Assembly (NCBI GenBank): GCA_033032865.1
Contig: JAWHQI010000005.1
Coordinates: 10,130,001-10,194,000 of the forward strand
Reading direction: 5' to 3'
Source of the DNA: Dactylorhiza incarnata
Taxonomy: Eukaryota; Streptophyta; Magnoliopsida; Asparagales; Orchidaceae
DNA length: 64,000 nt
A program made the translations under genes and the position numbers. Positions 3,245 to 64,000 of the stretch are shown one piece after another; position 1 is the first letter of the stretch; each line of letters opens with the position of its first letter. Below the pieces are notes generated by a model. That model saw nothing but the letters and a program-made list of their open reading frames with translations. It was not told the DNA's origin and ran no database searches.

Positions 3245-3442
3245 TGTTGGACATGTGTGTCACATCCCTTTGTTTGAGAATAACAAATCCCAAATTGTAT
3301 TTGATCTTGCTTGTCATGTGTTTATAGTGTGCAGGAACTATAAGAGCAATACTCCACACGTAGAAAGCAGCTGAATTCAAACATCTGGAAGAATGCACTA
3401 CCACCAGCATTAGAGCTACCGCCAGGCGCTAGCTCAGGTTCT

Positions 3443-3840
3443 GTTCGACGAACTGGAAGCTGCGTTCGACGAAATCTGAAGGAAGCTCCGTTCGACGAAT
3501 GAGGAGCTCCGTTCGATGAATATTCCTGCGTTCGATGAATTTGTGCTCAACAAGCTGCGTTCGACAAACTAGGAGCTCCGTTCGATGAATGTTGCTGCGC
3601 TCGACGAATTAATGCTCGGCAAGTTGCGTTCGACGAACGAGAAGCTCCGTTCGACGAATTAAGCCTGCGCTCGACGACATTGCGGCCGACAACTAGGTTC
3701 GATGAACTTGAAGCTCCGTTCGACGAAATTGACTCCGTTCGACGAAAGTTGGTTCTGCACGATGTTGCGGTTTTTCCGTTCGACGAAGGATGCGTTCGAC
3801 GAAGACGCGTTCGACGAATTCTGTTTCGTTCGACGAAATA
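3443..3840 (+). repeat. Clustered GTTCGACGAA motif array in U3 of LTR A
   Basis: About 18 copies of the core TTCGACGAA (variants TTCGATGAA, TCGACAAAC) occur, often in phrases such as GAAGCTCCGTTCGACGAA, with spacing of roughly 15-30 bp. Flanking patches at 3411-3433 and 3885-3995 carry GCTACCGCCAGGCGCTAGC-like imperfect palindromes. The block is CpG-rich inside an otherwise AT-rich LTR and stops just before the TATA-like box at 4007. A promoter-proximal enhancer role is inference. Confidence 0.85.
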
Positions 3841-4006
3841 TTGTTCTGTCACGCAACCGACGGTTTCGCAACCACTCCACACGAACGCTACCGCCAGCGC
3901 TAGTGCTATCGCCTGGCTCTATCTCAAGTTTGTGCACAGCGCCACGCCGCCGACAGTTTCGCAACCGCTCCACACGAACGCTACCACAGGCGCTATCTTC
4001 AAGTTC

Positions 4007-4014
4007 TATAAATT
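4007..4014 (+). promoter_or_regulatory. TATA-like box of LTR A
   Basis: TATAAATT lies immediately downstream of the palindrome block, a position typical of the U3 promoter of plant LTRs. A second candidate, TATATAAATA, lies near 4550. Neither start site can be proven from sequence. Confidence 0.45.
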
Positions 4015-4861
4015 GATGGGCTCTTTCTCGTTTTGGCTATCCATCCCAGAGAGGTTGCAAGTGCCACAATTCTATTGCTGTTATGCTGCCGAAGATGGAT
4101 CTCCCACTAAAAGCTTAAGGAGAATTCTGGAGGAGGACAACGTCACGCTACATCCGAAGGACGATCGCTTATTCTACAGCGATCCTTCATCCTCATCTTC
4201 AGAAATCTCATATAGGGAGTTTTTATTATTGTTATCTTTATTTTTTCATTCCATACTTTCTTTGTAATCGTTTAGTTAATTCGCCTTGTTGGCGACTAGG
4301 TCTGGGTAGGACTTAGTCAGTAATTTGCCTTGTGTTGGCGACTAGTTCTAGGTGATTAGATCTAGGAGGCTCTCGAGGCCATATTTTGGGAAGGATTGGC
4401 TAGAGCGGCTTGAGGCCATATCCGGGGAAGGATTGGCTAAAGCCAACCGGTTTGAGGGGATACAAGTCAGTATAGAAAAGGAAAAGATATTTACTTTTGT
4501 ACGCCTCCGATTTCTAGCGATATTGAAATCAAATTTATGTAAACAACTTTTTATATAAATACAATCATGTCTCTACTTGTGTTTACTTGATTTCTCTCCT
4601 TTGGCGTTATCTCTAAAATATTGGTTACTAAGTTTTCAATTCTAATTACTTTGTCTAAATTGTTTAGTTCAATCTCTTTCATCATAAAACAATTTAGTAC
4701 TTGTTTCTAAACTTGGTTATTTTGATATTCTCACAAATTAGCTAAATTGTTATTTTTCCTTTTCATATTATAAAACAATTTAGTAATTTTCATAACATTA
4801 TTATAAAGAATTTTTATTCCCTTATTCAACCCCCCCTTTAACGGCGCCAATCGATCCAACA

Positions 4862-5666
4862 CTTAAAAGAAGAGGTGACCGCTGCTGTCCGCACAATCCG
4901 CAGAAGCTGCACAAAGGAAATTCAATCAGCAAACCGCGCGGTCACAAAAAAGAGACCGCAAGCTCTAGGCGCGAGTTCAGCTTACACTTGGTGCGATTGT
5001 TTTGCTACTACAGTGACTCCTATTTATAGGCGTGCGACCTGATCCAGTCATCACCCTATGAGATAGATTCGCCGCCCTGACCGTGCGACCAAGACCGGTC
5101 AACCCGCACGGTCAGCAGAAGATCGCCCTGTGCTTTGTGAGCTCACCGACTTCAACCCTGACCAGAAGATCGCCACTCCTTCAAGAAGCCGCGCGGTCAT
5201 GGCAACCCGCACGGTCATGATGCTCACCACCAGTGTTCGCATATAAGAGACCTCCTCCAGAGACCGCGAACACAAAGAAGGAGACCGCGCAACTAAGAGC
5301 ACCTTAGTCGGCGCACACCAACAAGAAACCGGATAGTCACTAGACCGGAAGACCGCCCCAACAACAACCCTGTGCGGTCAACAGCTTAACCCGCACAGTA
5401 TAGAAAATAGCTCGCCACACGGTCACACAAACCAGACCACGCGGCCTCACAAAACTGAATAACAGCTCGCCACACGGTGACACAAACCAGACCGCGCGGC
5501 CTCACCTCGGCAGCCTTGGACAAAGAACGACGGTCAGACCGAATAACCTGCGGCTAGACCGAATAGGTCAGACTGTAGAGGAGACCGCAAGATCGCGCGG
5601 TTAGACCAGACCGCGCGGTCTTCCCCCAGACCGCCAACTTCACACTTCAACGTAACATTTTCAACA
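4862..5666 (-). mobile_element. Partial LTR of the copia E family
   Basis: This matches the right-hand two thirds of the full LTR at 51619-52826, including its opening phrase (GAGGTGACCGCTGCT), the TATAAATA region near 5021-5030 on the minus strand and the GACCGCGCGGTC palindrome at 5609-5620. The right end TTTTCAACA corresponds to the LTR start on the minus strand. The missing left third coincides with the insertion boundary of LTR A. Sequence right of 5666 is not copia-internal, so this was a solo LTR or the 5' LTR of a minus-strand copy. Confidence 0.8.
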
Positions 5667-6790
5667 ATTTCTAGTGCGGTGCACAACGGAGCGGTGGAAT
5701 GGATGGTGGAATGGGGCGCTCCTCAACTTGCATAAACCACAATAAATCTCATCGAAATGAAATTACATTAACTTAAACAAGAGGTTTATGAACATCATCC
5801 ATAACAACATACATCCATAAGGAAGAACTAAAACAACACACAAGTGGGAAGAATAAACCCATGCTCGAAGACACGCTGAAGGTTCTCGTTCGGAATCATC
5901 GGGTTGTCAAGCCGCGTCCGAGCTCAGTCTTCAGTTGTCGTCCGGGGTCTGGAGGAGCTGTCACCTTCCTCTACTTTACCCATCTTCTTCGTGGTTCAGC
6001 TCAAGCTAGCTCTTCTTGGAGATACCTTGAATGTAGTAGAAATCTTTCGTTAATGGTGCTCTTGAGCTCGTGGATGGTGGAGGAGGCCGAGGAGGAAGCT
6101 TTGGAGGAAGATTTGCAGGAAAATGGTTGTCGGAGCTTCTTCTAGGGAGAACGGTGGTGGAACCCGAGTGTTTTCCTGGCCATTTTTCAGCCAGCAGATT
6201 TCTTGGCTTAAATACTAAGACATCAGAAATTAAGTCACGCACGGTCGAACGCACGACCGTGCATTGCCCGTGCATTATTAACAAAAAAGATATGGCTTGA
6301 GGAAGAAGCAGCAGTGCCCGTGCATTTTACTCACGCACGATCGAAGCCTCCCGTGCGTAAAAACGCACGGCCAATCCCAGATGGCCTGTAAATGCAGGCT
6401 TAACAGGCGATCGTGTGTTTCCTTCGTGCACGGGCAACTGCCCATGCGTAAAAATGCACGATCAAAGACAGATCATCATTTTCTACCACTGATGAAGGCG
6501 CACGACTGCAGCCGTCCGTGCGTCAAGGAAAAATGCATGACCGTGCGGTATATACAAAAATGATTTCTGGGTAAAATATGATGATCCATCCACCTACATG
6601 AAAATCAACACGGCTGGGAATACCCTTCTAGCTCAATATAAATACATAAAAAGGTTAGGGAGCACCATGTGCTTACCCCCAAAAACAAGAAACGCAAAAG
6701 CAAACCAAAATGGGCGTAAATAGTGCACATAGCGCGGAAGTGATAAAAAGAGAAATACAAGCAATTATGCCTCGAAAAGGACGTGCACAA
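5667..6790 (-). mobile_element. Tat-like LTR fragment, family related to element C
   Basis: The first ~360 bp match 51258-51618 closely; the rest resembles the LTRs of element C, with the phrases GGTTGTCAAGCCGCGTCCGAGCTC and GGGAGCACCATGTGCTTACCCCC. A CpG-rich motif block lies at 6235-6555, and TATTTAAGCC is at 6205-6214 on the minus strand. The fragment runs directly into the next, related LTR near 6790 without a TG/CA boundary, which suggests recombination or deletion between related LTRs. Confidence 0.7.
6235..6555 (-). repeat. CpG-rich GCACGACCGTGC-type palindrome block
   Basis: Repeated GCACGGTC, GCACGACCGTGC, CCGTGCGT and TGCACGATC half sites occur about every 20-40 bp. The copies are diverged. 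On the minus strand the block lies upstream of TATTTAAGCC at 6205-6214. The same type of block recurs in both LTRs of element C. Confidence 0.75.
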
Positions 6791-7430
6791 GAGTCAAAAC
6801 TGTGTAGGCCTTGAGCGTGCTTCTTCGTGAGGTGAATGGATTACACGGGCCGCTATGCCACGCTTCGCTAGGAGGATTGAAGAGTAGTCTTTCGGAATGG
6901 AAGAGTAGGCTAGCTTAATGGAGTGGAGGGTGATGACGGATGTGGAAGATGGAATGGGGGCGCATCTCATACACACATATGAATAATATAAACTCATGAA
7001 CATGAGATAAACATTACAAAGCAAGATTCATAGTGCATATCATCAAAAGCTAGAGAAATATAGCATTTACAACTACCAATACAAAGAAAGAGAGAGCAAG
7101 GAATCGACCCAATCTGAAGCCTTGTTGAATATTCACGGTTGGAATCGCTGGGTTGTCAATCCATGTCCAAGCTCAGTCCTCAACTGCGTCCGGGGTAGAG
7201 AAGGCTGTCACTACCTTCCAATGGCCCGTCTTCTTCGTGTCACGATCCGGCCGCACAACCAAGCTTCCTTCTCCTTGGATAATGGTGGATATAGGGCTAG
7301 ATCCCTCTCCTTGGAGCTCGAGGATGATGGAGGAGGCCTAAGGGGGCGGAGAACCTGCGGAAAGGGCGAAAACGGCGGGGCTCTTGGGCGCGGGAAAAGA
7401 ATAGTCGATCCGATTAAGGCAGATTTTGTA

Positions 7431-7440
7431 GCTTAAATAG
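7431..7440 (-). promoter_or_regulatory. TATA-like box of LTR C
   Basis: CTATTTAAGC on the minus strand lies directly downstream of the palindrome block. The equivalent position in the right LTR (22549-22560) reads CAATTTAAGC, a degraded box. Confidence 0.4.
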
Positions 7441-7454
7441 AAAACTGGTCAGAA

Positions 7455-7690
7455 ATTGGTCACACACGGTCGAACGCACGACTGTGCGTGAACCATGTGA
7501 TATTAATTAAGAATAACACTAGGAAGACGACCCAGAGCGCGCCCGTGCGTTTTACTCACTCACGGTCAAAGCCGACTGTGCGTAAAAATGCACGACTAAA
7601 TTCAGATTGCTACTTTGGGCCAAAGATGAGAGCGCACGATCGCATCCGACCGTGCGTCAAGAAAACGCACGACCGTGCGATTCATGCAGA
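7455..7690 (-). repeat. GCACGACCGTGCG palindrome block in left LTR C
   Basis: Motif copies include ACGGTCGAACGCACGAC, CGCACGACCGTGCG and CCGTGCGTAAAAATGCACGA. The block occupies about bases 296-531 counted from the LTR start. It is matched at 22575-22805 in the right LTR, where several CpGs have decayed to TG/CA. Confidence 0.8.
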
Positions 7691-9054: not shown

Positions 9055-9847
9055 TAAGCTTTTTAAGGGAGTATTAACCCTGTACAGGATGAGATAAAGG
9101 GTTTGGAGTGTTCTTCTCTGTCAATGATCTGAGAGAAGACAAAAGGTGTTGAAGCTGAAAGCTCCACCTGTCTGATGAGAGTTGATGACAGCTTTATGGA
9201 CAGAGCTTTCTCAAACAGAAGTCTTTGTAGCAGATTATCTGGAAGAAGTTAATCTTCAGATTGTTGTTGCTCTTGAAAGACTTTATTTTACAGCAGATCT
9301 GAGAGATTGAATCTTGTTCTCAGAATGAAGAGGATGTTGTCTTAATGAAGAAGAAAGCTGGAGAGAATAATATATTTTCTTCTTCTTCTTCCTCTAAAAA
9401 CTTCTTCTGTTCTCCTTGTTCTATGATAACAGAGAGAGTAAAAAGATGGTGAAGTTTTCCTTTTTCTTTTCTTGTAGAAAATCGACTGTCTTAGTTCTGC
9501 TCTCTTCTTCTTGTATCACCTGCATTTGTATTCAAATTCAAATCTTGTATCTTTTTAAGGAATGTCTTCTTCTGACTTGAATCCTTCTTGGAACCAGGTA
9601 GCCACGCAAAATGATTTTGGCAGGTCCTTTCAATTCCTTTTATCGAGAAAGATGCCTTGGCATTAAATGTCAACGACTATTCTTATTCTTGGAATAGAGG
9701 GAATATAAGGATATAATAAATAAGAAAGATATCCTTACATGGCTGCCTGAATACGTCCAAGGAGAAATAAATATATCCGTTATTCTGCTGATTTGAGTTC
9801 AGAGAACTGACATCCACTGAGAAAATTAATCTGAACTTCAGAGAGGA

Positions 9848-10085
9848 ATTTGTCGAGCGCTGGCTAGAATTCGTCGACCGCTGCTAGTCATTTGTCGAGC
9901 GCTGGCTTAGAATTTGTCGACCGCTGCTAGTCATTTGTCGAGCGCTGGCTTAGAATTTGTTTACCGCTGCTAGTCATTTATCGAGCGCCGCTCAGAAAAT
10001 GTTGAGTGCTGGAACTGTGAATTTCTTCAGTCTGCTGGAAGCAATTTGTTGAACGAATCTGGTCATTCATCGAACACCACTCGCC
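9848..10085. repeat. 43-bp tandem repeat with TCGA-centred motifs in U3 of LTR D
   Basis: The unit alternates TTTGTCGAGCGCTGG and TTTGTCGACCGCTGC, about 43 bp together, for three near-exact units, then decays toward 10085. The motifs resemble the TTCGTCGAAC/GTTCGACGAA motif found elsewhere in D and in LTR A. The block lies about 140-380 bp from the LTR start and upstream of TATATTTATT near 9766-9776 on the minus strand. Confidence 0.8.
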
Positions 10086-11604: not shown

Positions 11605-11606
11605 TT

Positions 11607-13151
11607 TTATGATGTCAGCATGAGTCCTCTAGGAAGGCATATCAGAGCCTTTGACAAATCCTCTATGTACACTTTTGGAGATACCCTTGAAGTATATTTA
11701 ACATCAAATTTTGATAGTAAACTATATAGGTCACAAGATGGATGAATGCATATACTATTTATTTCTTCTATAACTTGTGTATCTGCTATATCTGTGTCAA
11801 AAACTATAACTTCTGTATCTTCTGATTCTGGAGCTTCTTCATTGGACATTTCCCCCTGCCTAGCTTCAGGACAGCCTGAATCTAGGCCCCTAGAAGAAGG
11901 GACAACAAGAGAGGAAGGAAGAGAATCTATCTTAGCCATTAGAGTAGATATTGCCTGAAGAACTGGAGCAAATTTTGCATCCAGGAGTTGGCTTATTCTA
12001 GGAAGGATAAGATCAAAAATCTGATCAGCAATGGAGGTGATGTTGAGAGATAGATGATCTTGTGGAGGAGTAGAGGATGGTTGTGAAGTGGATGGAAATG
12101 AGATTGTAGGAATTTGAGAGATATTGCTGATGTTGGTAGTATGTGTGGGAATATTTGGATGAATTGGACTGGGGGAATGAGTGGGTGATTGATATTCATT
12201 ATGTATTGGAGATAGAGGTGTGGTAGGTAGTGATTCTGGAGATAGAGGTGGAATATCATTGATAGGTGAAGGAGGTGGTGAAGAATGAGAATGTGCAGGA
12301 GATTGTTGAGCAGGTGGAGATGGGATATTAGAAGGAGAAGGATCTGAGGATGGAGCTTCTTGAAGGGTAGAGGGAGTGACTTGATCAATCCCTGTGTCCT
12401 CAGAGGTTTTCCTTTTCTTAGAGGCATCAGCCCCTGTATTCTTCTTGGGAATTACCCTATCCCATTTAGCAAAGAGTGCTGAGGTCAGCCTCTTGCTGGC
12501 ATTTATGGTCACCTTTGGTGACACCAGAAGCTCTGGATGCCTTTCCTGCAGAAAAATCCCTATAACTCTTCCAAAGCATACATTATCTTTAGAGTTTTTC
12601 TTTTTAATCAAATCAAAAAGAATTGATCCCCAATTGACTTTCTTCTTCTCCATTAAGGCCACCATTAACAGAAACTGGTGCCTATTGATATAGTCATGCC
12701 CAGAAGTCTTGCTCAGCAAGACTTTTCCAAAAATGTCTGCTAAGAACTTGTAGTCCTGAGACAAGTTCTTTTTCAGAAGGTGGCTAGGGTTTCCAGTCAA
12801 ATGGCCCATTTTGACTAAAGCTTCATCAAATTCATTTGAGCTTATGTCTAAGTCATCTTCAGCATTCTCAAAACCAAAGATTTCAGAAAGGATGGTGGGA
12901 GAGAGAGAGACATGATGACCTGAGATTGTTCCCGACAAGCTTTCATCGACTAGTTTTGCAGTGTAAACCCATTCTTTTATCTCTGCAACAGCTATCTTCT
13001 GCCTGGTGCTTAGAAACTTCCTTAGACGTTGTTCATCCAACATTTGAAGAATATCCTTGAAGATTTGGTCCGACTGTGCAAACGAGTCCATGTCAATGTC
13101 GAAACCTGCGTCAAACTTCATTAGATGCAGAGAGGCCTGAGGAATCGACAT
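11607..13151 (-). CDS. Sirevirus ORF3, upstream part (plant transposon protein-like N domain)
   Basis: This 514-codon frame begins at an ATG 361 bp after the end of pol. Residues ~20-230 look globular and alpha-helical, with phrases such as FLSTRQKIAVAEIKEWVYTA and ILSEIFGFENAEDDL. These resemble the 'putative plant transposon protein' region found in extra ORFs of plant LTR elements; that link is from memory of the family. Residues ~250-370 are Pro/Ser/Thr-rich and disordered. There is no transmembrane helix or signal peptide. An uninterrupted frame of this size, while pol is broken, suggests recent insertion or selection on the family. Function unknown. Confidence 0.7.
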   Translation of the reverse strand: MSIPQASLHLMKFDAGFDIDMDSFAQSDQIFKDILQMLDEQRLRKFLSTRQKIAVAEIKEWVYTAKLVDESLSGTISGHHVSLSPTILSEIFGFENAEDDLDISSNEFDEALVKMGHLTGNPSHLLKKNLSQDYKFLADIFGKVLLSKTSGHDYINRHQFLLMVALMEKKKVNWGSILFDLIKKKNSKDNVCFGRVIGIFLQERHPELLVSPKVTINASKRLTSALFAKWDRVIPKKNTGADASKKRKTSEDTGIDQVTPSTLQEAPSSDPSPSNIPSPPAQQSPAHSHSSPPPSPINDIPPLSPESLPTTPLSPIHNEYQSPTHSPSPIHPNIPTHTTNISNISQIPTISFPSTSQPSSTPPQDHLSLNITSIADQIFDLILPRISQLLDAKFAPVLQAISTLMAKIDSLPSSLVVPSSRGLDSGCPEARQGEMSNEEAPESEDTEVIVFDTDIADTQVIEEINSICIHPSCDLYSLLSKFDVKYTSRVSPKVYIEDLSKALICLPRGLMLTS

Positions 13152-13512
13152 TGTTCCTGCAAAGAGAGTTGAAGATCAAGTGTAGAGGGGAACTGGAGGG
13201 AAAGACGATTTCTGTAGGCGCAAAGCTTAGAATAAGATAAAATAAGGCTTATATAGAAGGGTCGAAGAATGAGGGCGCATTCGTAAACCACTGTTCGACA
13301 AAACCTAATAAAATTAGAAGTCTAAAAGGCTTTATTTCTTTGTCTGAAAGCATTCGACGAGAACATCTTTTTCGTCGACCGTCATTCGACAAATGAAAGT
13401 TCCTTAACTGACTCTGCGTTTAAGAGGTTTCAGAGACCACCGTTCGACAAATGATTCAAATTTGTCGTTCTTCGTTCGACGAATTTGTGAGATAAATAGA
13501 AATACTTAATTT
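13152..13512 (-). other. Inter-ORF region between pol and ORF3 of D, rich in TTCGACGA motifs
   Basis: No gene is visible. At least eight TTCGACAAA/TTCGACGA/TCGTCGACC motifs lie between 13260 and 13485, the same motif type as in the LTR and near the gag end. As the leader of ORF3 it could hold a sub-promoter, a splice site or an RNA signal, but I see no clear TATA box. Confidence 0.6.
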
Positions 13513-18872: not shown

Positions 18873-20064
18873 TGAAAGTGGACGTCAGATCTTAAATTAC
18901 TCTAAAGGGGGGGGGGGGGTGAATAGAGTATTAAAACTTTTTATTCAGTTTTATAGTGGAATTTAAAATACTGAGTAAGTATATGTGTAATCAGTGAGAG
19001 TTAAAGATAGAGACAGAAATAGTAAAAAGCACACAGCACAAGCACACAGAAATAAGCAATCACAGAAGACACAAGGAGCTATAGTAGTTCCCCAATAAAT
19101 CTGGGTACGTCTACTCTTCTACCACCCTTGGTAGGAATTCACTAGGAGGGTTGACAAGGTGCCCAGGCACCAAGGGGTTTTTGGTAAGGTGTCCACACAC
19201 CAATAAGCTTTTGATAAGGTGCTTAAAAACCACACAAGGATTTTTTGATAAGGTGTCTTGCCACCACTGGGTAAGCTTTTTAAGGGAGTATTAACCCTGT
19301 ACAGGATGAGATAAAGGGTTTAGAGTGTTCTTCTCTGTCAATGATCTGAGAGAAGAAAAAAGGTGTTGAAGCTGAAAGCTCCCGCTGTCTGATGAGAGTT
19401 GATGACAGCTTTATGGACAGAGCTTTCTCAAACAGAAGTCTTTGTAGCAGATTATCTGGAAGAAGTTAATCTTCAGATTGTTGTTGCTCTTAAAAGACTT
19501 TATTTTATAGCAGATCTGAGAGATTGAATCTTGTTCTCAGAATGAAGAGGATGCTGTCTTAATGAAGAAGAAAGCTGGAGAGAATAATATATTTTCTTCT
19601 TCTTCTTCCCCTAAAAACTTCTTCTGATCTCCTTGTTCTGTGATAACAGAGAGAGTAAAAAGATGGTGAAGTTTTCCTTTTTCTTTTCTTATAGAAAATC
19701 GACTGTCTTAGTTCTGCTCTCTTCTTCTTGTATCACTTGCATTTGTATTCAAATTCAAATCTTGTATCTTTTTAAGGAATGTCTGTTTCTGACTTGAATC
19801 CTTCTTGGAACTAGGTAGCCACCCAAAACGATTTTGGCAGGTCCTTTCAATTCCTTTTGTCGAGAAAGATGCCTTGGCATTAAATGTCAATGACTATTCT
19901 TATTCTTGGAATAGAGAAAATATAAGGATATAATAAATAAGAAAGATATCCTTACATGGCTGCCTGAATACGTCCAAGGAGAAATAAATATATCCGTTAT
20001 TCTGCTGATTTAAGTTCAGAGAACTGACATCCACTGAGAAAATTAATCTAAACTTCAGAGAGGA
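18873..20064 (-). mobile_element. 5' LTR of Sirevirus D, U3 end missing
   Basis: It is nearly identical to 8663-9848 of the 3' LTR (scattered single-base changes and a longer G run at 18906-18918). Homology stops after the phrase CTTCAGAGAGGAA. The first ~380 bp of U3, including the 43-bp motif array, are absent, and element C sequence follows. A deletion at this border probably removed the LTR end, the TSD and perhaps part of C. Confidence 0.85.
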
Positions 20065-21256: not shown

Positions 21257-21523
21257 CTTGTCGTAAGTGCTAGGAGAAATATCCTATGACGACATTTTCA
21301 GTAATTAAAGCAGATAAACGAAACAGAAATTCTTTGCAAGGAAATTTACATAAACTAATAAAACTCCTTGGATTAAACTTGCCTAAAACTTTAAAATAGG
21401 AGAGAGATATAATAACAAACAATTTATAATTAAAAAGCAAACAAAAATAATAAGGCGGCTATACACACTGTTAGAACTACAATCTCTTGTCTCCCTCTAC
21501 AGCAACTCACACGTTTGTGTTCC
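21257..21523 (-). other. Leader of element C
   Basis: This lies between the PBS and the first open frame. I see no further feature except AT-rich sequence. Confidence 0.5.
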
Positions 21524-45692: not shown

Positions 45693-46625
45693 CCTGCCGG
45701 GATGAGATGCCCCCCAAAATATTTTTCAAGAATGCAAAATTTTTGAACTTTGGGATATTGATTTGTTGGTCCTCTCCTGCCTTTTTTTCAAACAAATACA
45801 GCTTCATTGCGGTCGACTACGTATCGAGGTGGGCAGAAGCGCAAGCTCTCCCCATCAACGACGCGAGAGTCATCGTAAATTTCTTAAAAAAAATATTCTC
45901 TCATTATGGCACGCCACGCATTATTGTTAGTGATCAGGGCACCCATTTTTGCAATAATCAATTTACTAAAATTTTAGCAAAATATGGTGTTAAGCACAAA
46001 CTGCCCACTACTTATCACCCAAAAACGAGCGGCCAAGTCGAAGTCATTAACCGAGAATTAAATCAGATTTTAGCAAAAACTATTTCTATTAATAGGAAGG
46101 ATTGGGCTCTTAAGCTCAATGATGCGTTATTGGGCTTATCGAACGACGCACAAGACCGCCATCCATTGTACACCATATCGATTAGTTTATTGCAAGGCTC
46201 GCCACCTTCCGATCGAATTAGAACACCGCGCATTCTGGGCGCTTAAATTTTAAAATCTCGATTCTACCTTTGCGGCCGAGCAAAGAAAATTTCAAATTAA
46301 CGAACTAGATGAGTGGTGCGCGAATGCGTATGAAAGTAATAATTTTTTTAATAAGCGAACCAAATTTTACCGCGATAAAAATATTAAAATTATAAAAACT
46401 TTTTTGGCGGCGATCTTGTCCTTCTTTATAACTCTTGTCTTTGCCTTTTTCCAGGAAAGCTAAAATATCGATGGTCCGACCCCTTTATAGTTAAAGAGGC
46501 TTGGTCGTATGGGACAGTTCTCATATCCCACCCGGAAAAAGGCTCCTTCAAAGTAAATGGGCATCGTCTTAAGTTATACCTTCCAAGTGAATTATCTAAC
46601 GAGAAGAGTGAATCAATATTACTTC
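45693..46625 (+). pseudogene. Integrase of element B, catalytic core and C-terminus
   Basis: The 199-codon frame (45647-46246, with its first ~17 residues from the LTR) contains FIAVDYVSRWAEAQAL (first Asp), IIVSDQGTHFCNNQF (second Asp) and YHPKTSGQVEVINRELNQIL (Glu), so the DDE triad is kept. The tail (46260-46625) includes LDEWCANAYES and a decayed GDLVLLYNS-like region. A frame change occurs after about 46240. The order and spacing match Athila integrase. Confidence 0.9.
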
Positions 46626-48316: not shown

Positions 48317-49924
48317 TGTTAAGTAGGTTTTATATGAATTTTTATTATAGAATTTAGTATTTAGTTAATGGGAATTTCTCCTTTTCATGCCAATATTAGC
48401 TTATAAATAGTTCTTTTCTTGAAACTGAACCTAATTTAGCATTTTTTGTAATTTTGTAAATTTTTGGGACAATTTGGTCAAATTTGAATTGCACGCCCTC
48501 GGTCACGCCCGTGACCAAGGGCGGGTAATCCTAATGCACGTCCAGAGTGGCTGCCACGTGATTTAGGAACATTTCCCCCAGGTCATGCCTGTGTTCCAAT
48601 ACACGCCCTCGGTCACGCCCGTGACCCAGGGAGTGTCAACTTAAAGATCATTCCCAACCGATGTCGTGTCCAAGTGGAGATGTCGTGCACATTTGACTTC
48701 AATCATGCCCGTGTTCAAGCAAGTCATGGTCGTGACTCTCCCACATGAACTTTGACTCCCGCCACGCCGCTAATCATGCCCATGCTACATTTAATGAAGC
48801 CGCCCAAGTACACGGTCGTGACCTCCAAGTCACGGGTGTGTAATGTACGATTTTCGCCAAGCCATCATGAAATCCCCACTCCGCTACCCCAGCTGAGCAG
48901 AACTGAAATTACACGCCCTTGATCATAGGCGTGACTGAGGACGTATAACTTGGGAATTTTTCCTATAAATTCTAGAGGTCTTCTTGAGTCCAGGGTTCAG
49001 AATGTTGGAGAGGGGGAGGTGGTGCTAGAGTTGTTAGTGTCCATTTTCATCCTTTTTGCATGTTTTTCCTTTTCATGTTCTCTCCCTCTCTTACTTTAAG
49101 TAATGTTCTAATTTTCTTTTATGCAATAGTCTAATGTAAGCTTGTAGTCTCTCCTTTTATAGTATTACAACCTTTCATTTAAGGCTTGTAATTACTTTTT
49201 TCATTAATAATGATTTAGCTTTGCTTTCTTTCATTTTCTCTCTCTACTTATAGTTAATTTTTCAAGCAATCTTATCTTTCTCTTTTTTCCCTCCACCATG
49301 ATTAACTAATTCTCATTAGTGCTTGATCGAAATGATCCCAGGATGAGATAATCAAGTCATGAATTATTAGCTCTCTTTTTCCATTTAAGTAACACTTTTG
49401 ATTTACCCTTGATATTTATTTAGTGAGACCATATTTTCGATATGTGGTTTTCACTATGGTCTTCATACTTAGCTAGCCGAGAGGCTCAAAGTATGAATTG
49501 ATCACTCATTGGGAAAAGAGAGTTGCACGCACCCCTCAAGAGAGGATGACATAAATCTCCCGGATTGTGGTCAAATCCAATAGCGGGGTTCACAGCGTAA
49601 AACAAGTTTTAGGCAATCAATTATAGAATGAGAGTTCAGTCAGTTTTTCCTAAAATTAGTTGGGCATTCACCTCGAGAGAGGCATTGTTTAAGCTTCAGG
49701 AACCTCCACGGTCAAGTAGTTTACATAATAGGAATTAGATTTATCTTTATCTTCTCTTGATTATTCTCACTCCAAGGTGAATTTAGATTGAACACTAATC
49801 CATTTAACCATCACCTAAACCTTAGTTAATTTGCAATTGCCTTTCTTTTTAGTTATGTAAAACCCTAAAAACTTATTAGATAAGATAATAGTTTCATCCT
49901 CCAAGTAGAAGTAATCAACGCACC
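48317..49924 (+). mobile_element. 3' LTR of Athila-like element B, 3' end truncated
   Basis: It starts TGTTAAGTAGG right after PPT AAGTATGGGGGTATT. A palindrome block lies at 48495-48940, and TATAAATT at 48964-48971. Bases 49733-49922 match the 5' LTR remnant. The last ~150 bp expected from the 5' LTR are missing and different sequence starts after CAACGCACCCA. Confidence 0.82.
48495..48940 (+). repeat. GGTCACGCCCGTGACC palindrome block in the 3' LTR of B
   Basis: Perfect GGTCACG-CC-CGTGACC copies are at 48501-48516 and 48611-48626. Decayed half sites (TCATGCCCGTG, GTCACGGGTGTG) continue to ~48940. The block ends just before TATAAATT at 48964. The centre is CC here and GG in the solo LTR, the same palindrome read on the other strand. 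Confidence 0.85.
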
Positions 49925-51618: not shown

Positions 51619-52826
51619 TGTGAAATTTTTCTGTAGATCTAGGAGTGAGCAGGAATTGTATAACTAAAAGTTCAAGCCAATCAACCAGAAGCACATGAAG
51701 CAAACACAATCTTTATTGACAAGCAAAATTCTTCATTACAGGGCGAGGTATACATGGCGAGAAATGATTTCGCCAGTACACAAAAACAGAAGAGAAAAGC
51801 AGTAGAAAGGAAAACCAGCGGTCTGACTTCCCGAGACCGCCTGACCGCACGACCTGACAGTCCGCTCGGCTAGAAAACAAGACTGCCCGAACTGCCTGCC
51901 TGCGCCTTGAACAACACCAACTGAGAACCACGTGAACTCCCAGACTCCACTGATCCACCCGAACTCCAGCAACCCGCACTGCAAGCTGCGAGACCGCCCG
52001 AACACCTTTAGATGAGGAGGTGACCGCTGCTACCCGCACAATCCGCAGAAGCTGCACAAAACAAGTTCGATCAGCTAACCGTCCGGTCACAAAAAACAGA
52101 CCGCAAGAACAGGTCGCGAGATCAGCTTACACTTGGTGCAATTATTTTGCTGCTATAGTGACTCCTATTTATAGGCAGGCGACCTGATCCAGTCACTGCC
52201 CTATGAGATAAGTCACCGCCCCTTGACCGTGCGACCAGACCGGTCAAGCGGCGCAACCAGCAAAAGATCCTCCTACTTAGTGAGCTCGCCGACTTCAACA
52301 GAAGCCGCGCGATCATGACAAGTCGCCCAGTCATGTCGCTTACCACCTGTGTTCACCACCCGACCTCCTCCAGAGACCGCGAACACACCAGACCGACTAG
52401 GAAAAAACCCGCCAAGTCGACCAAACACCTGTGACCGCATATACCAGCCGATTGCCGAAAGACCAGCCATGCGAATACAGACCGGAGACCGCGCGACTAA
52501 GAAGACCTTAGTTTGCGCGCACCATAAAGAACTCGGACAGCCCCCAGGCCGAGATGCCCGCACCACGTGGTCAGAAACACTAGACCGCGCGCCGCCCTAA
52601 CCAGGCAGAAACTTGCTCCGCCACGCAGTCACACGACCAGACCGCGCGACCACACCTCGGCACCCTTAGACAGAAGAACGATTGTCCCGCCGAGAAGCCC
52701 GCAGCTAGACCAGAGAGGTCAGACCGCCAGAGGAGACCGCAAGACCGTGCGGTCATACCAGACCGCGCGGTCTCCCCCCCACCCAGACCGCCAACTTCAC
52801 AAACTTCCACTTCAACATTTTTAACA
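51619..52826 (-). mobile_element. 3' LTR of copia element E
   Basis: 1208 bp. The minus strand reads TGTTAAAAATG...AAATTTCACA, with TG...CA ends. The PPT CTTCAAGGGGGGG lies at the right edge. Dense GACCG/CGGTC motifs fill most of the LTR, including the perfect palindrome GACCGCGCGGTC at 52761-52772. A second copy of its U3 two thirds lies at 4862-5666. Open frames inside it are products of the GC-rich repeats. Confidence 0.88.
52166..52173 (-). promoter_or_regulatory. TATA box of LTR E
   Basis: TATAAATA on the minus strand, inside the palindromic phrase CCTATTTATAGG, about 655 bases from the LTR start. It is conserved in the second copy at 5021-5030. The motif-rich region lies both upstream and downstream. 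Confidence 0.55.
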
Positions 52827-55676: not shown

Positions 55677-55681
55677 ATATA

Positions 55682-55732: not shown

Positions 55733-57879
55733 TGTAAGACCTCAAATCAGAAAGTTGGATTTCTGGAATCCAGCGCTATCGCCGGCGATAGCGGCTATCG
55801 CCTGGCGATAGCGTTCTGTTGAGAAGGTTTCTGTCGAGAGGCTGTCGCACGGCGGTAAGTCTAACGCTGGCGACACCGTGACACGTGTCACGCACTGTTC
55901 AATGCAGTGGCGTTGACTGGTCGGAGTCGGTTCTTTAGAGCTATCGCCAGGCGATAGCGCTACCGCCCGGCGACAGCTCCAAAATGTACTTTGCGGCAGA
56001 AATCGTGGGCATTGATGGCACTTGGACTTTTGGGGCTGGTTTTGGGTTGATTGGCTCGGGAGCTGGCATAGGGTGGCCGAAACTCACTTGAAACCCATTA
56101 TTCATTAAGGGTTTTGTTTTGGGAGAGAGGGAGAGCTCCAAAGTTATGATGAATAGGGTTTCTCAACCCTAGGGCTTGGATTTGGTGGAGCTACACTCAT
56201 CGGAATGCCTCAACATTGGTGGCTACGCGTAGAGGAGGGCCAGACGCTCCTTTCCATCCATGCCAAAAGTCAAGCCAAGGCCTCGAAGCGACTTCTAAGG
56301 GTAACGATCTTTTATACTCTCTTTTGGACATGTGTTAGTCCATTTCTGTGCATATTTGAGGTCCCTACCCAAAAGGGTGAGGTCATGACCTCCGACGGGT
56401 GGATTCGTGTTATCCCCGTCAAATCTTGCATACATGTAGAGTCCATGCGTGGAATGGACGTAGGCGCGCTGTGTGAAGCCCATCCGAGATGGTTCGTCCG
56501 GGTTGGTGATGCTTTTTGATATTATGCGTGTCGGGGAAGTATCCGTGTTGATATCCTGCTTCGTAGGACTAGAGGGTGCTACTGCATGCGCAGCAATGCC
56601 TGGGGGTGTGCCCCAGGGAGTACCTGAAGTTAGAAGCATAAATGGAGATTCTGTTCACTATCGCCTAGCGTTAGCGTTATCGCCGGGCGGTAGCTCCCAG
56701 ACTTGGTTCTGGTGATTTTGTGCGTTCTGAGGCAGTGGGAGTGCTACTGCATGTGCAGCAATGCATGGGGGTGTGCCCTGGGAAGCACCCAAAGCTAGAA
56801 GCCAAAATGGGGTTTCTGTGCGCTATCGCCAGGCGTTAGCGTTAACGCTGGCGACAGCTCCCAGACTGAGTTCTGGTGATGTTGTTGTGCCCACCTGTTG
56901 AGAGGACCTGAGGCCTGTGTGCCCGACCTGTGAGAGTGTCCTGGTGGATGACTTAGTGGCCCATAGAGCCGGCTAATTGAGAATACCTGGGCTGAGGGGA
57001 CGCCATACCCTCTTTTCGTGTTGTACAACGAGAGCTGTGAACAACGGGCATTTGGCGAACTTGAAACCGCACCATTGCAGCACCTGATAAGTGAGCCTCG
57101 TACAACATGTCGGGAAGCAATGGGAAAGAGTCTTCGGACTACGGGATGTTCACAATTAAAGCACCGGAGAGCCCTGGTATTCGGGCCACCGACTTTAGCC
57201 TCGAAGGGCAAAGACATCAAGAGTGGATGGTGGTGGAAGGCGGAGTACACCAAAGAGTGCCTGAGAGCACGAGACGTGGAGGCCATTCCCACGTTTTTGA
57301 TTGATGCATATGTATGAGTTGTTGTGGTCCGTGTCAGCCGCTTCATTCTGTTATATATATATATGCTGTGATGCTCTTGCAGGGACAGGAAACTGCCACC
57401 CCCTCGAAGGGGTGGAGTCGTTATAATTTGGTCAGCCGTAGCTGACCGTTGCCCTGTTTTGCCACCGTTTTTGGTGGGCTTGTTGTACAGGTGCTAGACC
57501 GAGCGGGAACATAGTGGGCTCATAGCGGGCTGAAGCCCCTGCGCTGCTGCGGCCCTTGAAGGCCATTTTGATGTCCTCTTGTTTTTCATGTATGGCCGGC
57601 CTGCACGTCGATGTTGGTAATTTGTAAGGCCGTCGTGCCTAAATTTTGTTGTATAAAACATTTCATTCCAAGTAATAGAAGTGGACATACCCGGGTTCGG
57701 GTTTTGGGGTTTATCTTGTCTCTTTTCAGCTTCCGCATAGAATGCTCTGAGTTAGGCTTCGTTGTATAACATCGTTCGATATTTCAATTAAGTGACGTTC
57801 CCGTTTGTTTTGTAGTATATGGCGTGGGGCCCCGGCCGGACCTTCTGTTATATGCTCCCGAACGGATGGGGGTGTTACA
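55733..57879 (+). mobile_element. 5' LTR of G
   Basis: 2147 bp, TGTAAGACC...GGTGTTACA. It contains palindromic CTATCGCC/GGCGATAG clusters at 55774-55812, 55940-55975, 56656-56695 and 56821-56863. The last two each follow a near-duplicate ~100-bp phrase (GCTACTGCATGCGCAGCAATGCCTGGGGGTGTGCCC). A (TA)n tract lies at 57351-57364. The frames inside do not look like real proteins. Confidence 0.9.
55774..55812 (+). repeat. CGCTATCGCCGGCGATAGCG palindrome and one 20-bp unit
   Basis: A perfect 20-base palindrome at 55774-55793 is followed by a single unit GGCTATCGCCTGGCGATAGC (55793-55812), a hairpin with a one-base loop. The second LTR has four such units. Confidence 0.92.
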
Positions 57880-57882
57880 AAT

Positions 57883-59223: not shown

Positions 59224-59299
59224 GTATAATTTAAGATACAGTCCTTACTGTTTTATATACCTATTTTAGTGTTCATGCTAACCTTGTTTGGCGGCGTAG
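59224..59299 (+). other. Intron-like segment between Gag and protease in G
   Basis: 76 bp from CAG|GTATAA to GGCGTAG|GC, with branch-like TGCTAAC at 59276-59282, 17 bases before the acceptor AG. Removal joins KDVMTG to [13 protein letters not shown] in phase, so gag and protease become one frame. With it retained, the gag frame meets an early stop. Confidence 0.7.
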
Positions 59300-59790
59300 G
59301 CTTTGTAAATGTTGTAGGCGTTCCTGCGAGAGCGCTTTTCGTTACTGGAGCTTCGCATTCCTTATCGTCGGACTTCGTCCAACGTATTGGTGCGCCATCG
59401 ATTGCTTCTGCAGATGGACTGGAGGTCCTACTGCCGAATGGATATTCGATGCGTGTGGAGAGGAGTTGGTGCTTGAAGGTTCTAGTTGGAAGCCAGGAGT
59501 ATGACCTGAAAGCATCGTTACTCCCCCTAGTTGAGTTCGATGTAATCTTCGGCATGGACTGGCTGTCAGAGCAACGTGCGTGCATCGATTGCACCACCAA
59601 GGAGGTGAGGTTTGGGCAGTGTGCCGATCGTGAGACGGTCTTTGCGGGCATGCGTGGATCGAGCAAGATGCTGATGTCTGCTCTCCAGGTGTCCAAGGCA
59701 GTGCATCAGGGAGCAGAGTTATTCTTTGCTCTAGTGGAGGCTTCAACGCCGAGGCCCAGCTTAGTGGATGTTCTTGTAGTTTCAGAGTTC
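59300..59790 (+). pseudogene. Protease of G
   Basis: The frame continues into RT (open 59269-60303). The active site reads [14 protein letters not shown] where functional copies have LFDTGASHSF, so the catalytic Asp is replaced by Val. Downstream, [19 protein letters not shown] and [14 protein letters not shown] are typical for gypsy proteases and the RT lead-in. Confidence 0.9.
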
Positions 59791-61120
59791 CCTGATGTGT
59801 TCCCGAGCGATCTCCCCGGCGCTCCACCGCAGCGGGAGATAGATTTCACGATTGAGTTGGGGCCAGGCGCTAAGCCTGTGGCCCGCTCGCGGTATTGTAT
59901 GGCTCTCAAGGAGTTGGCAGAGTTGAAGTTGCAGCTGCAGGAGCTGCTTGAGCAAGGCTACGTGCGTCCGAGTTCCTCACCTTGGAGTGCACCGGTTCTC
60001 TTTGTCAAAAAGAAGGACGGTAGCCTGCGGCTTTGCATCGATTATCAAGAGCTGAACAAGCTGACCGAGAAGAATAAGTATCCTCTTCCGAGGATAGACA
60101 CCTTGTTCGACCAGCTCGTTGGTTCGACAGTATACTCGAAGCTGGACTTGAAGTCCGGCTACTATCAGGTGCGGATCAGGGAGTGCGACATCCCGAAGAC
60201 TGCCTTCAGTACAAGGTACGGGCAGTATGAGTTCACCGTAATCCCGGTTGGGCTGTCTAATACGCCTTCGGTGTTCATGGACTTGATGCACCAGACTTTC
60301 TGAGAGTACCTCGACCGGTTTGTGATCGTCTTCCTTGACGACATACTGGTCTACTCTCAGTCCGAGGAGTAGCACGGTGATCACCTGCGAGTAGTCTTGG
60401 AGGTTCTGAGGAGGAACCAACTGTATGCCAAGTTCTCGAAGTGCGAGTTCTGGCTACCTTCTGTGGCGTTCTTAGGCCATATGGTTAGTGGTGCGGGTGT
60501 GGCGGTAGATCCGGCGAAGGTTGCGGCCATCAGGGAGTGGTCTGTTCTTTCTACTATAGCGGAGGTCCGTAGCTTTCTCTGGCTGGCCGGCTATTACAGG
60601 CGCTTCGTGGAGAACTTCTCACGGATCGCGCTGCCTCTTACGACGCTGACACGGAAGATGCAGGAGTTTATTTGGACGCCCGCGTGTGCGCAGGCTTTCG
60701 AGGAGTTGAAGTGGCGGCTTACCACGGCTCCGATCTTATGTTTGCCTTGTGGCACGGAGGGCTATGAGATCTACACCGACGCTTCTGGGAGTGGCCTTGG
60801 CTGTGTTCTGCAGCAGCATGGCAAGGTAGTAGCGTATGGCTCTCGCCAGCTGAAGGTGCACGAGCGGAACTATCCGGTCCACGACTTAGAGTTGGCGGCC
60901 GTGATATTTGCCCTGAAGCTTTGGCGGCATATGTGTATGGCGTGAGGATCGACATCTTCACGGACCATAAGAGCCTGAAGTACCTTCTGACGCAGAAGGG
61001 GCTGAATATGCGACAGCAGAGGTGGATGGAGTTCCTTGGGGACTACACCTTCGAAATTCATTACACTCCCGGGAAGGGGAATGTTGTCGCAGATGCACTC
61101 AGTCGCAGGGCTCCAGCGTA
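59791..61120 (+). pseudogene. RT and RNase H of G
   Basis: RT phrases: [82 protein letters not shown] at 60301 (expected CGA, in F-R-EYLDRF) precedes the intact active site FLDDILVYS. A TAG at 60370 (CAG position) follows. RNase H phrases: [49 protein letters not shown], and after a frameshift near 60942 [15 protein letters not shown], ending VADALSRR at 61109. Confidence 0.92.
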
Positions 61121-62440
61121 GGCCAACTGGATTCAGATGCATGATGAGCACCTGATACGTGATCTGGAGGCCTTGGATATTTCTTGCGTGGAGAAGCGGA
61201 GCAGTGGCGGTGCCTGTTTGAGTTGGACTGAGGTGCAGTACGACCTTGCAGTTAGAGTCCGCCAGGCTTTAGAACTCGATCCGAGTTTAAAGCGCTACGC
61301 GGAGGAGGCTGGTGGTGGCCCGGATGCCCAGTTTCAGGTGCGTGATGGGTTGCTGTGGAGAGGCGACCGTTTGTGCGTCCCCAAGGTGGGTGAGCTGCGC
61401 GATGAGTTGATGTACAAGGCGCATCATAGCAGGTATTCAGTTCATCCGGGGAGCACGAAGATGTACAAGGACATGAAGGTCCTTTTCTGGTGGCCGGGTA
61501 TGAAGAGGGACATCGCTCACTACATGGCCAAGTGCCACACTTGTGCGCTAGTGAAGGCGGAATGTCAGAAGCCCGGTGGCTTTTTGAAGTCATTACCGGT
61601 TCCGGAGTGGAAATTTGATGACGTTTCCATGGATTTCGTGCATGGGCTGCCGAGATCGCAGCGCGGGAACGAAGTCATCTGGGTAGTCGTAGACCGGCTG
61701 ACGAAGGTGGCACACTTTATCCCCAACCGGAGGGATGACTCGGTGGAGAAGTTGGCGAAGCTGTATGTTGATACAGTAGTACGACTGCATGGTGTGCCCC
61801 GTAGCATCGTCAGTGATCGAGATGGACGCTTTACTTCGAGCGACTGGAGGCTAGTCAAGCGTCTATTGGGTACGAATATGCAGTTTAGCACGACCTTTCA
61901 TCCTCAGACGGATGGCCAAACTGAGCGTACCAATAGGACGATGGAGGACATGCTCCGGATGTGCGTCCTGGATTTCGGCAAGGGGTAGGAAGATTACCTC
62001 TTTCTTGTTGAGTTCGCGTACAACAACAACTACCAGGTGAGTATTCAAATGGCGCCTTTCGAGGCCCTCTATGGCAGGAAGTGCCGCACTCCCTTAGCTT
62101 GGACGGAAACGGGCGAGACGAATCTCTTCAAGAGGAAACACGTCGAAGAGGCGATTTCGATGGTACGTATGATCCGGGAGAGGCTTTTGGTTGCGCAGGA
62201 TAGGAAGGCGAAGTACTATAATGCGAATCACCGCGACGTCCAGTTCGTCGTTGGCGATTGGTTTACTTAAAAATCAGGCCGTTCAAGGGTGTATCCAGGA
62301 TTCGACGCTTGAAAAAGCTGAGTCTGAGATACCTTGGACCGTTTGAGATCATCGAGCGCGTCGGCGAGGCGGCTTATAGGCTTGCACTATCGGCAGAACT
62401 GAGCGGGCTACACGATGTATTCCACATCTCCGTGTTGTAG
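61121..62440 (+). pseudogene. Integrase of G
   Basis: The 283-codon frame 61137-61988 contains the HHCC finger (HHSRYSVHPGSTKMY, CHTCALVKAE) and the core with DFVHGLPRSQRGNEVIWVVVDRLTKVAHFIP (first Asp), VSDRDGRFTS (second Asp) and TDGQTERTNRTMEDMLRMC (Glu). The DDE triad is intact. A TAG at 61986 stands where TGG is expected. The frame then continues with EFAYNNNYQVSIQMAPFEALYGRKCRTPL, and a one-base loss near 62258 shifts to MVYLKIRPFKGVSRIRRLKKLS and LHDVFHISVL. Confidence 0.92.
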
Positions 62441-62668
62441 AAGGCAGTGCAAGAGCCTACGCAGGTGGTCGCGGCAGATCAGGTGCCCGTGGATAGTGAA
62501 CTTAAGACGACGGTCAGGCCCTTTAGCATCGAGGATGCTGAGGTGCGTCAGTTGCGGAACAGGGCGATCCATATGGTAAAGGTCCGTTGGGACAACTGCG
62601 GTCGCGAGGAACTCTCATGGGAGCGTGACCGGACCATGATGGAGGAGTTCCCCGAGCTGTTTCGGTGA
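62441..62668 (+). pseudogene. Chromodomain-like C-terminus of G
   Basis: After a TAG at 62438 (CAG position) comes a 73-codon frame, FSIEDAEVRQLRNRAIHMVKVRWDN...EELSWERDRTMMEEFPELFR. It corresponds to the degenerate chromodomain tail of Tekay-type chromoviruses (VKV-W, E-W-E, FP-LF). It lacks some aromatic cage residues of classical chromodomains, as usual in this group. The TGA at 62666 is the natural pol end. Confidence 0.75.
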
Positions 62669-62772
62669 CGTTGATCTCTCTTTTTCCCCTTTATGTAAAG
62701 ACCTTTTTGGATATATATATATGCCTGTTTTTACAAATTTCGGGACGAAATTTTTTATAAGGAGGGGAGGGT
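62669..62772 (+). other. 3' UTR and PPT of G
   Basis: A (TA)n tract at 62709-62721 is followed by ACAAATTTCGGGACGAAATT and AAGGAGGGGAGGG directly before the LTR. The TTTCGGGACGAAATT phrase is characteristic of chromovirus 3' ends. Confidence 0.85.
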
Positions 62773-64000
62773 TGTAAGACCTCAAATCAGAAAGTTGGAT
62801 TTCTGGAATCCAGCGCTATCGCCGGCGATAGCGGCTATCGCCTGGCGATAGCGGCTATCGCCTGGCGATAGCGGCTATCGCCTGGCGATAGCGGCTATCG
62901 CCTGGCGATAGCATTCTGTTGAGAAGGTTTCTGTCGAGAGGCTGTCGCGCGGCGGTAAGTCTAACGCTGGCGACACCGTGACACGTGTCATGCACTGTTC
63001 AATGCAGTGGCGTTGACTGGTCGGAGTCGGTTCTTTAGAGCTATCGCCAGGCGATAGCGCTACCGCCCGGCGAAAGCTCCAAAATGTACTTTGCGGCAGA
63101 AATCGTGGGCATTGATGGCACTTGGACTTTTGGGGCTGGTTTTGGGTTGATTGGCTCGGGAGCTGGCATAGGGTGGCCGAAACTCACTTGAAACCCATTA
63201 TTCATTAAGGGTTTTGTTTTGGGAGAGAGGGAGAGCTCCAAAGTGATGATGAATAGGGTTTCTCAACCCTAGGGCTTGGATTTGGTGGAGCTACACTCAT
63301 CGGAATGCCTCAACGTTGGTGGCTACGCGTAGAGGAGGTCCAGACGCTCCTTTCCATCCATGCCAAAAGTCAAGCCAAGGCCTCGAAGCGACGTCTAAGG
63401 GTAACGATCTTTTCTACTCTCTTTTGGACATGTGTTAGTCCATTTCCGTGCATATTTGAGGTCCCTACCCAAAAAGGGTGAGGTCATGACCTCCGACGGG
63501 TGGATTCGTGTTATCCCCGTCAAATCTTGCATACATGTAGAGTCCATGCGTGGAATGGACGTAGGCGCGCTGTGTGAAGCCCATCCGAGACGGTTCGTCT
63601 GGCTTGGTGATGCTTTTTGATATTATGCGTGCCGGGGAAGACTCCGTGTTGATATCCTGCTTCGTAGGACTAGAGGGTGCTACTGCATGCGCAGCAATGC
63701 CTGGGGGTGTGCCCCGGGGAGCACCCGAAGTTAGAAGCAGAAATGGAGGTTCTGTTCACTGTCACCTGGCTTTAGCGTTATCGCCGGGCGGTAGCTCCCA
63801 GACTTGGTTCTGTTGATTTTGTGTGCTCTGAGGCAGTGGGAGTGTTACTGCATGTGCAGCAATGCCTGAGGGTGTGCCCTGGGAAGCAACCACAGCTAGA
63901 AGCCAAAATGGGGTTTCTGTGCGCTATCGCCAGGCGTTAGCGTTAACGCCGGTGACAGCTACCAGACTGAGTTTTGGTGATGTTGTTGTGCCCACCTGTT
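62773..64000 (+). mobile_element. 3' LTR of G (partial)
   Basis: The first 1228 bp of the LTR, collinear with 55733-56910. It differs mainly by four instead of one copy of the 20-bp palindromic unit and scattered substitutions. It runs off the window. Confidence 0.92.
62814..62912 (+). repeat. Expanded array of the 20-bp palindromic unit
   Basis: The palindrome CGCTATCGCCGGCGATAGCG (62814-62833) is followed by four exact head-to-tail copies of GGCTATCGCCTGGCGATAGC (62833-62852, -62872, -62892, -62912). Confidence 0.95.

Follow-up and report, generated by a model that had tools for sequence, protein, structure and literature searches.

The DNA considered here, 64,000 nucleotides of the orchid Dactylorhiza incarnata (contig JAWHQI010000005.1, positions 10,130,001 to 10,194,000; hereafter the window), is a nest of plant long terminal repeat (LTR) retrotransposons. 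Seven LTR families in it (A, C, D, E, F, G and an Athila-like group) carry in their U3 regions blocks of CpG-rich repeats, and these blocks, their placement relative to TATA-like boxes and their probable role as enhancers are the subject of this analysis. All results come from this one window, and motif recurrence was judged from copies inside it. Element limits were set by self-comparison, polypurine tract (PPT) and primer binding site (PBS) signals and reading, elements were typed by Pfam, and for E, Ep and G the block ends are those chosen in this analysis. Coordinates are collected in Table 1; the suffixes 5 and 3 mark the 5′ and 3′ LTRs of an element.

Table 1. Repeat blocks and related features of the window (ORF, open reading frame)
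Feature	Positions	Strand	Remarks
Element A, Sirevirus-like 3′ LTR	3245-4861	+	TGTTGG...CCAACA; PPT GGGGAG+AT/TG at 3237-3246
Full G-type palindrome in A	3410-3433	+	22/24 bp identical to G 55935-55958
A block	3443-3840	+	18 TTCGACGAA-type sites (≤2 mismatches), one orientation; CpG 13.6 per 100 bp
Decayed G-type palindrome pair in A	3886-3917	+	aligned to tandem pair at G 55774-55806
TATA-like box of A	4004-4018	+	
Ep, truncated LTR of E family	4862-5666	-	TATA-like box in 5018-5032
C-relative (Crel) block	6235-6555	-	words GCACGGTCG/CGACCGTGC; TATTTAA in 6203-6217
C 3′ LTR (C3) block	7455-7690	-	TATTTAA in 7428-7442
D 3′ LTR block	9848-10085	-	TCGA-cored direct repeats 21-22 bp apart, non-palindromic; TATATTTA in 9764-9778
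D env-like ORF	11607-13175	-	weak Transposase_32 match, 35.4 bits (cut-off 45)
D second motif cluster, before env-like ORF	13246-13490	-	ends in CTATATAAG (13246-13258)
C 5′ LTR (C5) block	22575-22805	-	no TATA-like box found after block
F 5′ LTR block	28080-28560	+	8 CCCRTCGATCGAYGGG-type sites, tandem unit about 65 bp; TATAAAT about 28802
F 3′ LTR block	37980-38400	+	
Solo LTR block	44335-44770	+	GGTCACG-GG-CGTGACC type sites; TATTTAA about 44800
Athila 3′ LTR block	48495-48940	+	GGTCACG-CC-CGTGACC type sites; TATAAAT about 48964
E block	52163-52810	-	TATA-like box 52163-52177; 8/11 E-type site positions upstream of box
G 5′ LTR block	55774-55985	+	GCTAnCGCCnGGCGnTAGC palindromes; more copies at 56657-56860
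G 3′ LTR block	62814-63085	+	three more 20-bp units than 5′ LTR; LTR cut by window end

Sireviruses are known for repeated motif (RM) arrays, CpG-rich palindromic repeats that make up CpG islands a short way upstream of the TATA box and recur ahead of env; they are described as Sirevirus-specific, absent from classic copia elements and CGG-CCG-cored except in Tnd-1 (Bousios 2010, PMC2829016). Elements A and D are Sirevirus-like by their junction signals, D additionally by its copia gag and pol domains. With definitions taken from the literature, the Sirevirus PPT octamer AGGGGGAG, which sits 10 bp before the 3′ LTR with AT/TG after it, is present in both with one mismatch each (AAGGGGAG-AT-TG in A, AGGGGGAG-AT-TA in D). 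Sireviruses have several PPT copies in this region; three further GGGGGAG tracts (2990, 3070 and 3101) lie within 260 bp upstream of the 3′ LTR of A, and D has the terminal copy only. The Sirevirus 5′ junction, CA/ATTGG plus TATCAGAGC, was scored in D alone, the 5′ end of A being outside the window, and is found there with one mismatch as TTTCA-ATTGG-TATCAGAGG at 18870. RM copies upstream of env, another Sirevirus trait, have a counterpart in D, before its env-like ORF. A palindromic RM with a CGG-CCG core was found in neither A nor D, both of which are TCGA-cored; that core is no strict Sirevirus requirement, since RM are described in 13 elements only and Tnd-1 is likewise without it. The 5′ LTR of D (18873-20065, minus strand) breaks off at the position that corresponds to the start of the repeat block in the 3′ LTR (9846) and therefore lacks a U3 block. 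Upstream of A, positions 1531-1786 hold an A/T-rich tandem repeat with a period of 84 bp.

The remaining families are of other kinds. Element E is a copia element outside Sirevirus: it has an RVT_2 pol, and AAGGGGGGG stands immediately before its TG without the AT/TG attachment site. The best named relative of its reverse transcriptase (RT) piece is from Platanthera zijinensis (72% identity over 88%, among the best 120 of 1903 matches). F and G are gypsy. F has protease (PR), RVT_1 and RNaseH in gypsy order, and its pol DNA is 60% identical to that of G over 2.7 kb; G, a candidate Del/Tekay element, keeps the PR-RT-RNaseH-integrase order (59230-61988), with RVP_2, RVT_1, RNaseH and H2C2 above cut-off and rve below, followed by a weak C-terminal Chromo match (E 0.012, 15.9 bits, cut-off 25.1). 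IMG/VR contained no exact copy of the G motif, and for a piece of the G pol it gave no confirmed relative. The Athila-like element, so called after the earlier note, carries GGCGCCGTTGCCGGGGA at 24719, which we take to be a tRNA-Asp-type PBS of Athila, and a retroviral-type integrase core (rve) at 45629-46246. Its 3′ LTR lies at about 48.3-49.95 kb, and 24362-49950 looks like a single such element whose pol holds F and into which a related solo LTR is nested near the integrase. In C the only ORF spans 411 aa; it contains a CCHC zinc knuckle and matches nothing in Pfam. D interrupts the interior of C, so the pol of C may have been lost. As it stands, C codes for this gag-like ORF alone (20048-21283, minus strand) and may be a non-autonomous gag-only element of the TR-GAG-like type.

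An earlier note on this DNA had proposed that every LTR family here carries its own block of CpG-rich palindromes. The CpG part of that description holds. CpG density is 6.1-13.6 per 100 bp in the blocks versus 0.6-4.7 in the rest of the LTR, so that the block is denser, 2- to 13-fold, in 12 of the 12 LTRs with a usable remainder (that of Ep is 6 bp). The GC-corrected CpG observed/expected ratio is also higher in the block for 11 of these; in the solo LTR (0.88 in the block versus 0.84 in its surroundings) CpG density merely follows GC content.

Symmetry is the less general trait. Of 425 overlapping 300-bp segments, 33 reach a palindrome density of z ≥ 5 over dinucleotide shuffles: 24 of the 60 that touch a claimed block by at least 30 bp versus nine of the 365 others. 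Eight of the 13 blocks contain such a segment (F5, F3, solo, Athila, E, G5, G3 and C5), with the strongest signals in the gypsy blocks F, G and Athila; Crel (4.0) and Ep (4.2) stay below this level and C3 gives no signal. Because tandem copies inflate counts of this sort, 14 chosen single units were tested by best-palindrome P against 400 shuffles each. P is at or below 0.0075 for E, Ep, F (two units), solo, Athila, G (two units) and Crel, and borderline for two units of C3 (0.09 and 0.06). Dyad symmetry beyond shuffles is thus present in C (borderline in the 3′ LTR), E, F, Athila/solo and G, that is, in five of the seven families. Away from the blocks, two stretches inside the D env-like ORF (11701-12150 and 12451-12750) are rich in inverted repeats (z 8-9) and have no CpG.

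All motifs quoted in the earlier note are present at the places given for them, and exact copies are few. GTTCGACGAA occurs 11 times in the A block and twice inside D; GCACGACCGTGC occurs twice (6251, 7667) and not at all in 22575-22805; TTTGTCGAGCGC has three exact copies, TCGACCGC two in the D block, TCCCGTCGATCGACGGGA one and GACCGCGCGGTC two. The exact Athila sites have a CC spacer (48501, 48611) and the exact solo sites a GG spacer (44341, 44443), and the 20-bp G motif is found exactly twice (55774, 62814).

In the ten LTRs measured (E and Ep left out; approximate values for Crel, solo and Athila) the block begins 42-300 bp from the LTR start, in agreement with the 40-300 bp proposed. A TATA-like box follows the block end after 16 bp in C3, 21 in Crel, 24 in Athila, 30 in solo, 73 in D and 167 in A; in E and Ep the closest site upstream of the box is about 50 bp away. 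The interval of 10-60 bp claimed for A, C, Crel, solo and Athila thus fails in A, unless the later G-like sites (3886-3998) are counted as part of its block; in C5 a box was looked for after the block and not found. Within the window, copia and gypsy elements do have the same layout, as claimed; it is published for Sireviruses (PMC2829016) and partly for Del (PMC4029996).

The supposition that every family has a palindrome to itself is not confirmed: A and D have the TTCGACGAA-type repeat in common, and A and G the GCTAnCGCCnGGCGnTAGC palindrome. The latter joins a gypsy element with a Sirevirus-like one, A holding one full site, with GCTACCGCCAGGCGCTAGC at 3415 inside it, and a decayed pair. 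In cross-family tests of motif models, 10 of 75 comparisons gave P(top 3) ≤ 0.0075 (400 shuffles, floor 0.0025): A to D LTR, A to D pre-env, G to A, D to A, C to Athila, E to C5, E to Crel, C to Ep, C to E and F to D pre-env. Local alignment of 28 U3 pairs gave its clearest signals for A-D3 (z 12.7), Athila-solo (10.7) and A-G5 (7.4); z was 2-3 for A-solo, D3-F5 and solo-G5 and below 2 for C5-E. When the G U3 was compared with 295 overlapping segments of the remaining DNA, a score of 19 was reached by six only, all of which contain one of these A sites, the next best being 14.5. Three lines (model tests, U3 alignment and segment comparison) single out the A-D and A-G links. The E-C link, a 9-mer CGCACGGTC in common (5 and 6 occurrences) plus the model test, is weaker because local alignment does not back it. 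Athila and solo blocks align at 54%, and the motif model of each detects the other at 26-29.5 bits. Such sharing suggests that these putative switches can be swapped or reinvented, by recombination or convergence. The idea that the blocks act as family recognition tags is weakened, since A has motifs in common with both D and G.

Element D presents its motif a second time. In the 371 bp before its env-like ORF, TTCGACGAA-type sites number seven, against a shuffle mean of 2.2 (P 0.012). Of these, six are reversed, compared with seven of eight forward in the LTR, and the cluster runs into the TATA-like CTATATAAG, so that a second motif-plus-TATA module precedes this env-like ORF. RM clusters are also reported before env in Sireviruses, where a promoter could not be identified conclusively (Bousios 2010, PMC2829016). 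For the D env-like ORF six relatives were found, the best named being from Platanthera zijinensis (54% identity over 46%). Directly before its ATG lies a 3′ splice-site-like CTCTTTGCAG|G (13149-13166, minus strand); because of this acceptor-like sequence, splicing would be an alternative route to env expression.

The two G LTRs differ by three 20-bp palindrome units (55774-55813 versus 62814-62912) at 96.5% identity outside the block, and the F pair has 84 gap columns in the block versus 83 in the remaining LTR, a stretch about ten times as long. In the C pair, 12 of 14 changed CpG sites in the block are TG/CA transitions.

We consider it probable, at roughly 60%, that the blocks are U3 enhancers, arrays of predicted sites for dimeric host factors. 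The arrays, mostly inverted repeats ahead of the TATA box, would serve as upstream enhancers of the LTR promoters, and dimeric transcription factors of the host would bind their sites. Arrays would gain and lose units and sites would vanish through CpG decay, for which reason the sequences would diverge fast while the layout persists; a given site type may appear in another family via recombination or convergence. What speaks for the enhancer proposal, made in the earlier note too, is anatomy: palindromes in excess of shuffles, a location in most cases upstream of a TATA-like box, dyads in F, G and Athila whose arms are 0-2 bp apart, and the second cluster of D. Along with the two orientations in D and the kept Athila motif, these short spacers fit binding by dimeric factors; protein binding, host-encoded dimeric factors and enhancer activity are what we infer. 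One position within the G/A motif bears on the nature of the reader. Pair 5 of the arms is Watson-Crick in two of ten distinct sites versus 69 of 80 for the other eight pairs (Fisher P 3e-5), which suits a protein reading a two-part half-site better than an RNA stem. The count covers 17 of 20 G sites, those out of register (55774, 56841, 63942) being left out, and neither set includes the 0-spacer site 62814 or the 3886 site of A.

Several results count against the enhancer proposal. Two families depart from the palindromic pattern ascribed to all: the segments over A and D give no palindrome signal, a 69-bp unit of A is weakly symmetric (P 0.02; the separate G-like site of A, P 0.0025) and the D unit, at P 0.99, is not palindromic. 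Best-palindrome spacers range from 0 to 8 bp across units. In F the TATA-like box comes 242 and 227 bp after the block end, close to the 240 bp noted before, and in G none was found in the first 1.27 kb of the LTR, with candidates at 57352 and 57652. Moreover, closeness to TATA alone is weak evidence, because 4-51% of random block ends (8 LTRs) equal it. Pair 5 was chosen post hoc among related sites and is paired in 7 of 17 when copies are counted; arm covariation shows no excess in F, Athila/solo or G (permutation P 0.64, 0.14 and 0.85). The orientation call in A and D depends mainly on one central base of a near-symmetric 9-mer, and the D gag ORF has two A-type sites towards its end (16967, 17013), away from known promoters. 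Block CpGs, finally, are hardly better preserved than others. Retention was pooled over the 5′/3′ LTR pairs of C, F and G, the pairs C5/Crel, Ep/E and Athila/solo being left out because they are different insertions. CpGs kept in the block and elsewhere are 16/30 versus 26/47 in C, 22/43 versus 39/103 in F and 25/27 versus 35/47 in G, with a common odds ratio of 1.6 (P 0.10). As this advantage is insignificant, an unmethylated CpG island is not supported.

Four other explanations were weighed. U3 transcripts might fold into microRNA-like stems that are cut to small RNAs, making the block a site of host recognition and silencing. In 11 of the 13 blocks (not C5 or D; A barely, at -40.3) one or both strands have a 110-nt segment that folds below -40 kcal/mol, and in maize small RNAs reportedly cluster on the palindromes of Sireviruses (Bousios 2016, as cited in Martin 2023, PMC10760457). 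The same scan, run without a shuffle control, places 42 of its 54 regions below -40 outside the claimed blocks, and the arms behave little like RNA: they do not covary, the mid-arm position is often unpaired and mismatched pairs show no preference for G.U (G.T versus A.C cells 12:15 in F, 16:28 in Athila/solo, 9:13 in G). We regard this as unlikely to be the explanation, while keeping it as a live rival or side effect. Kissing-loop RNA signals, raised in the earlier note and here taken to serve the pairing of genomes and recognition of the family, are disfavoured on the same grounds and on position, less firmly for G with its unclear promoter. Perfect palindromes could pair between two RNAs, and genomic RNA carries U3 at its 3′ end. 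Yet in A, C3, Crel, D, F, Athila and solo, and for the most part in E, the blocks lie ahead of the TATA-like box and therefore outside the 5′ leader; spacers as short as those of F, G and Athila provide hardly any room for a loop, one motif is common to two superfamilies, and the G/A mid-arm position is unpaired in eight of ten distinct sites. We give this very little credence.

The arrays could instead be functionless mutational by-products, expanded through slippage and template switching, as the unit difference between otherwise similar G LTRs and the gaps concentrated in the F block would suggest. We find this improbable, since by itself it leaves unexplained the place before TATA, the second module of D, the CpG density and the motif common to A and G. 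Recognition tags for an anti-silencing protein, host- or element-encoded, have a precedent in VANC of VANDAL elements, whose targets are dense, same-orientation tandem motifs that differ between related elements (PMC5735166), and the 18 sites of A do all point one way. The motifs of A recur in D and G, however, and block CpGs decay much like CpGs elsewhere, which makes such tags quite unlikely here.

The enhancer arrays proposed here resemble several known systems in part. Like Sirevirus RM, they are CpG-rich repeats that differ between elements and stand near TATA and before env; unlike RM, they also occur in Ty3/gypsy elements and in a copia element without the Sirevirus junction, and the two Sirevirus-like elements are TCGA-cored (PMC2829016). 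Del LTRs have 5′ CpG islands of variable length and sequence (Cruz 2014, PMC4029996), so that, as here, CpGs are dense towards the 5′ side of the LTR; in G the island consists of palindromes, a word stem ('palindrom') with 0 occurrences in that report. As in maize Sireviruses, LTR palindromes are clustered and have hairpin potential (Martin 2023, PMC10760457, citing Bousios 2016), whereas maize Ty3/RLG elements are reported to show no obvious hairpin peak and gypsy F, G and Athila have the strongest palindrome signals here. The same study describes one maize palindrome common to structured regions of copia elements and Helitrons, and cis-regulatory regions of transposable elements that are often repeat arrays, at times palindromic. 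A wheat gypsy/copia pair, RLG_Quinta and RLC_Gisela, likewise has an LTR sequence in common, proposed as acquired; unlike the short A/G palindrome it is 162 bp long and nucleosome-associated (PMC11302176). With VANC targets the arrays share short family-specific motifs, tandem arrangement and fast turnover, but VANDALs are DNA transposons with an element-encoded reader (PMC5735166); no such reader is shown here, and no search aimed at a VANC-like gene was made. In the open-access literature, through searches partly aimed elsewhere, we met no report of palindromic CpG blocks in Ty3/gypsy U3s and none of a gypsy element and a Sirevirus with one CpG palindrome in common. The new part is the palindromic blocks of Ty3/gypsy LTRs together with copia/gypsy motif sharing, Sirevirus arrays and the Del CpG island the known one.

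More tentatively, and at less than even odds, we speculate that U3 enhancers draw on a small vocabulary of dyad half-sites across copia and gypsy, that GCTAnCGCCnGGCGnTAGC was acquired by A or arose there anew, and that the D module is a portable second promoter for env. If so, distant elements would compete for the same host factor and could trade enhancer modules, as follows from a G palindrome that A acquired or that arose in it independently. The flipped cluster of D with its TATA is a candidate internal promoter for the env-like gene, and the free position in the G/A half-site yields a concrete binding prediction. Should palindromic CpG-rich enhancers prove widespread among plant LTR retrotransposons instead of a peculiarity of Sireviruses, they would point to common host factors that wake these elements and would be the place where silencing and activation collide.

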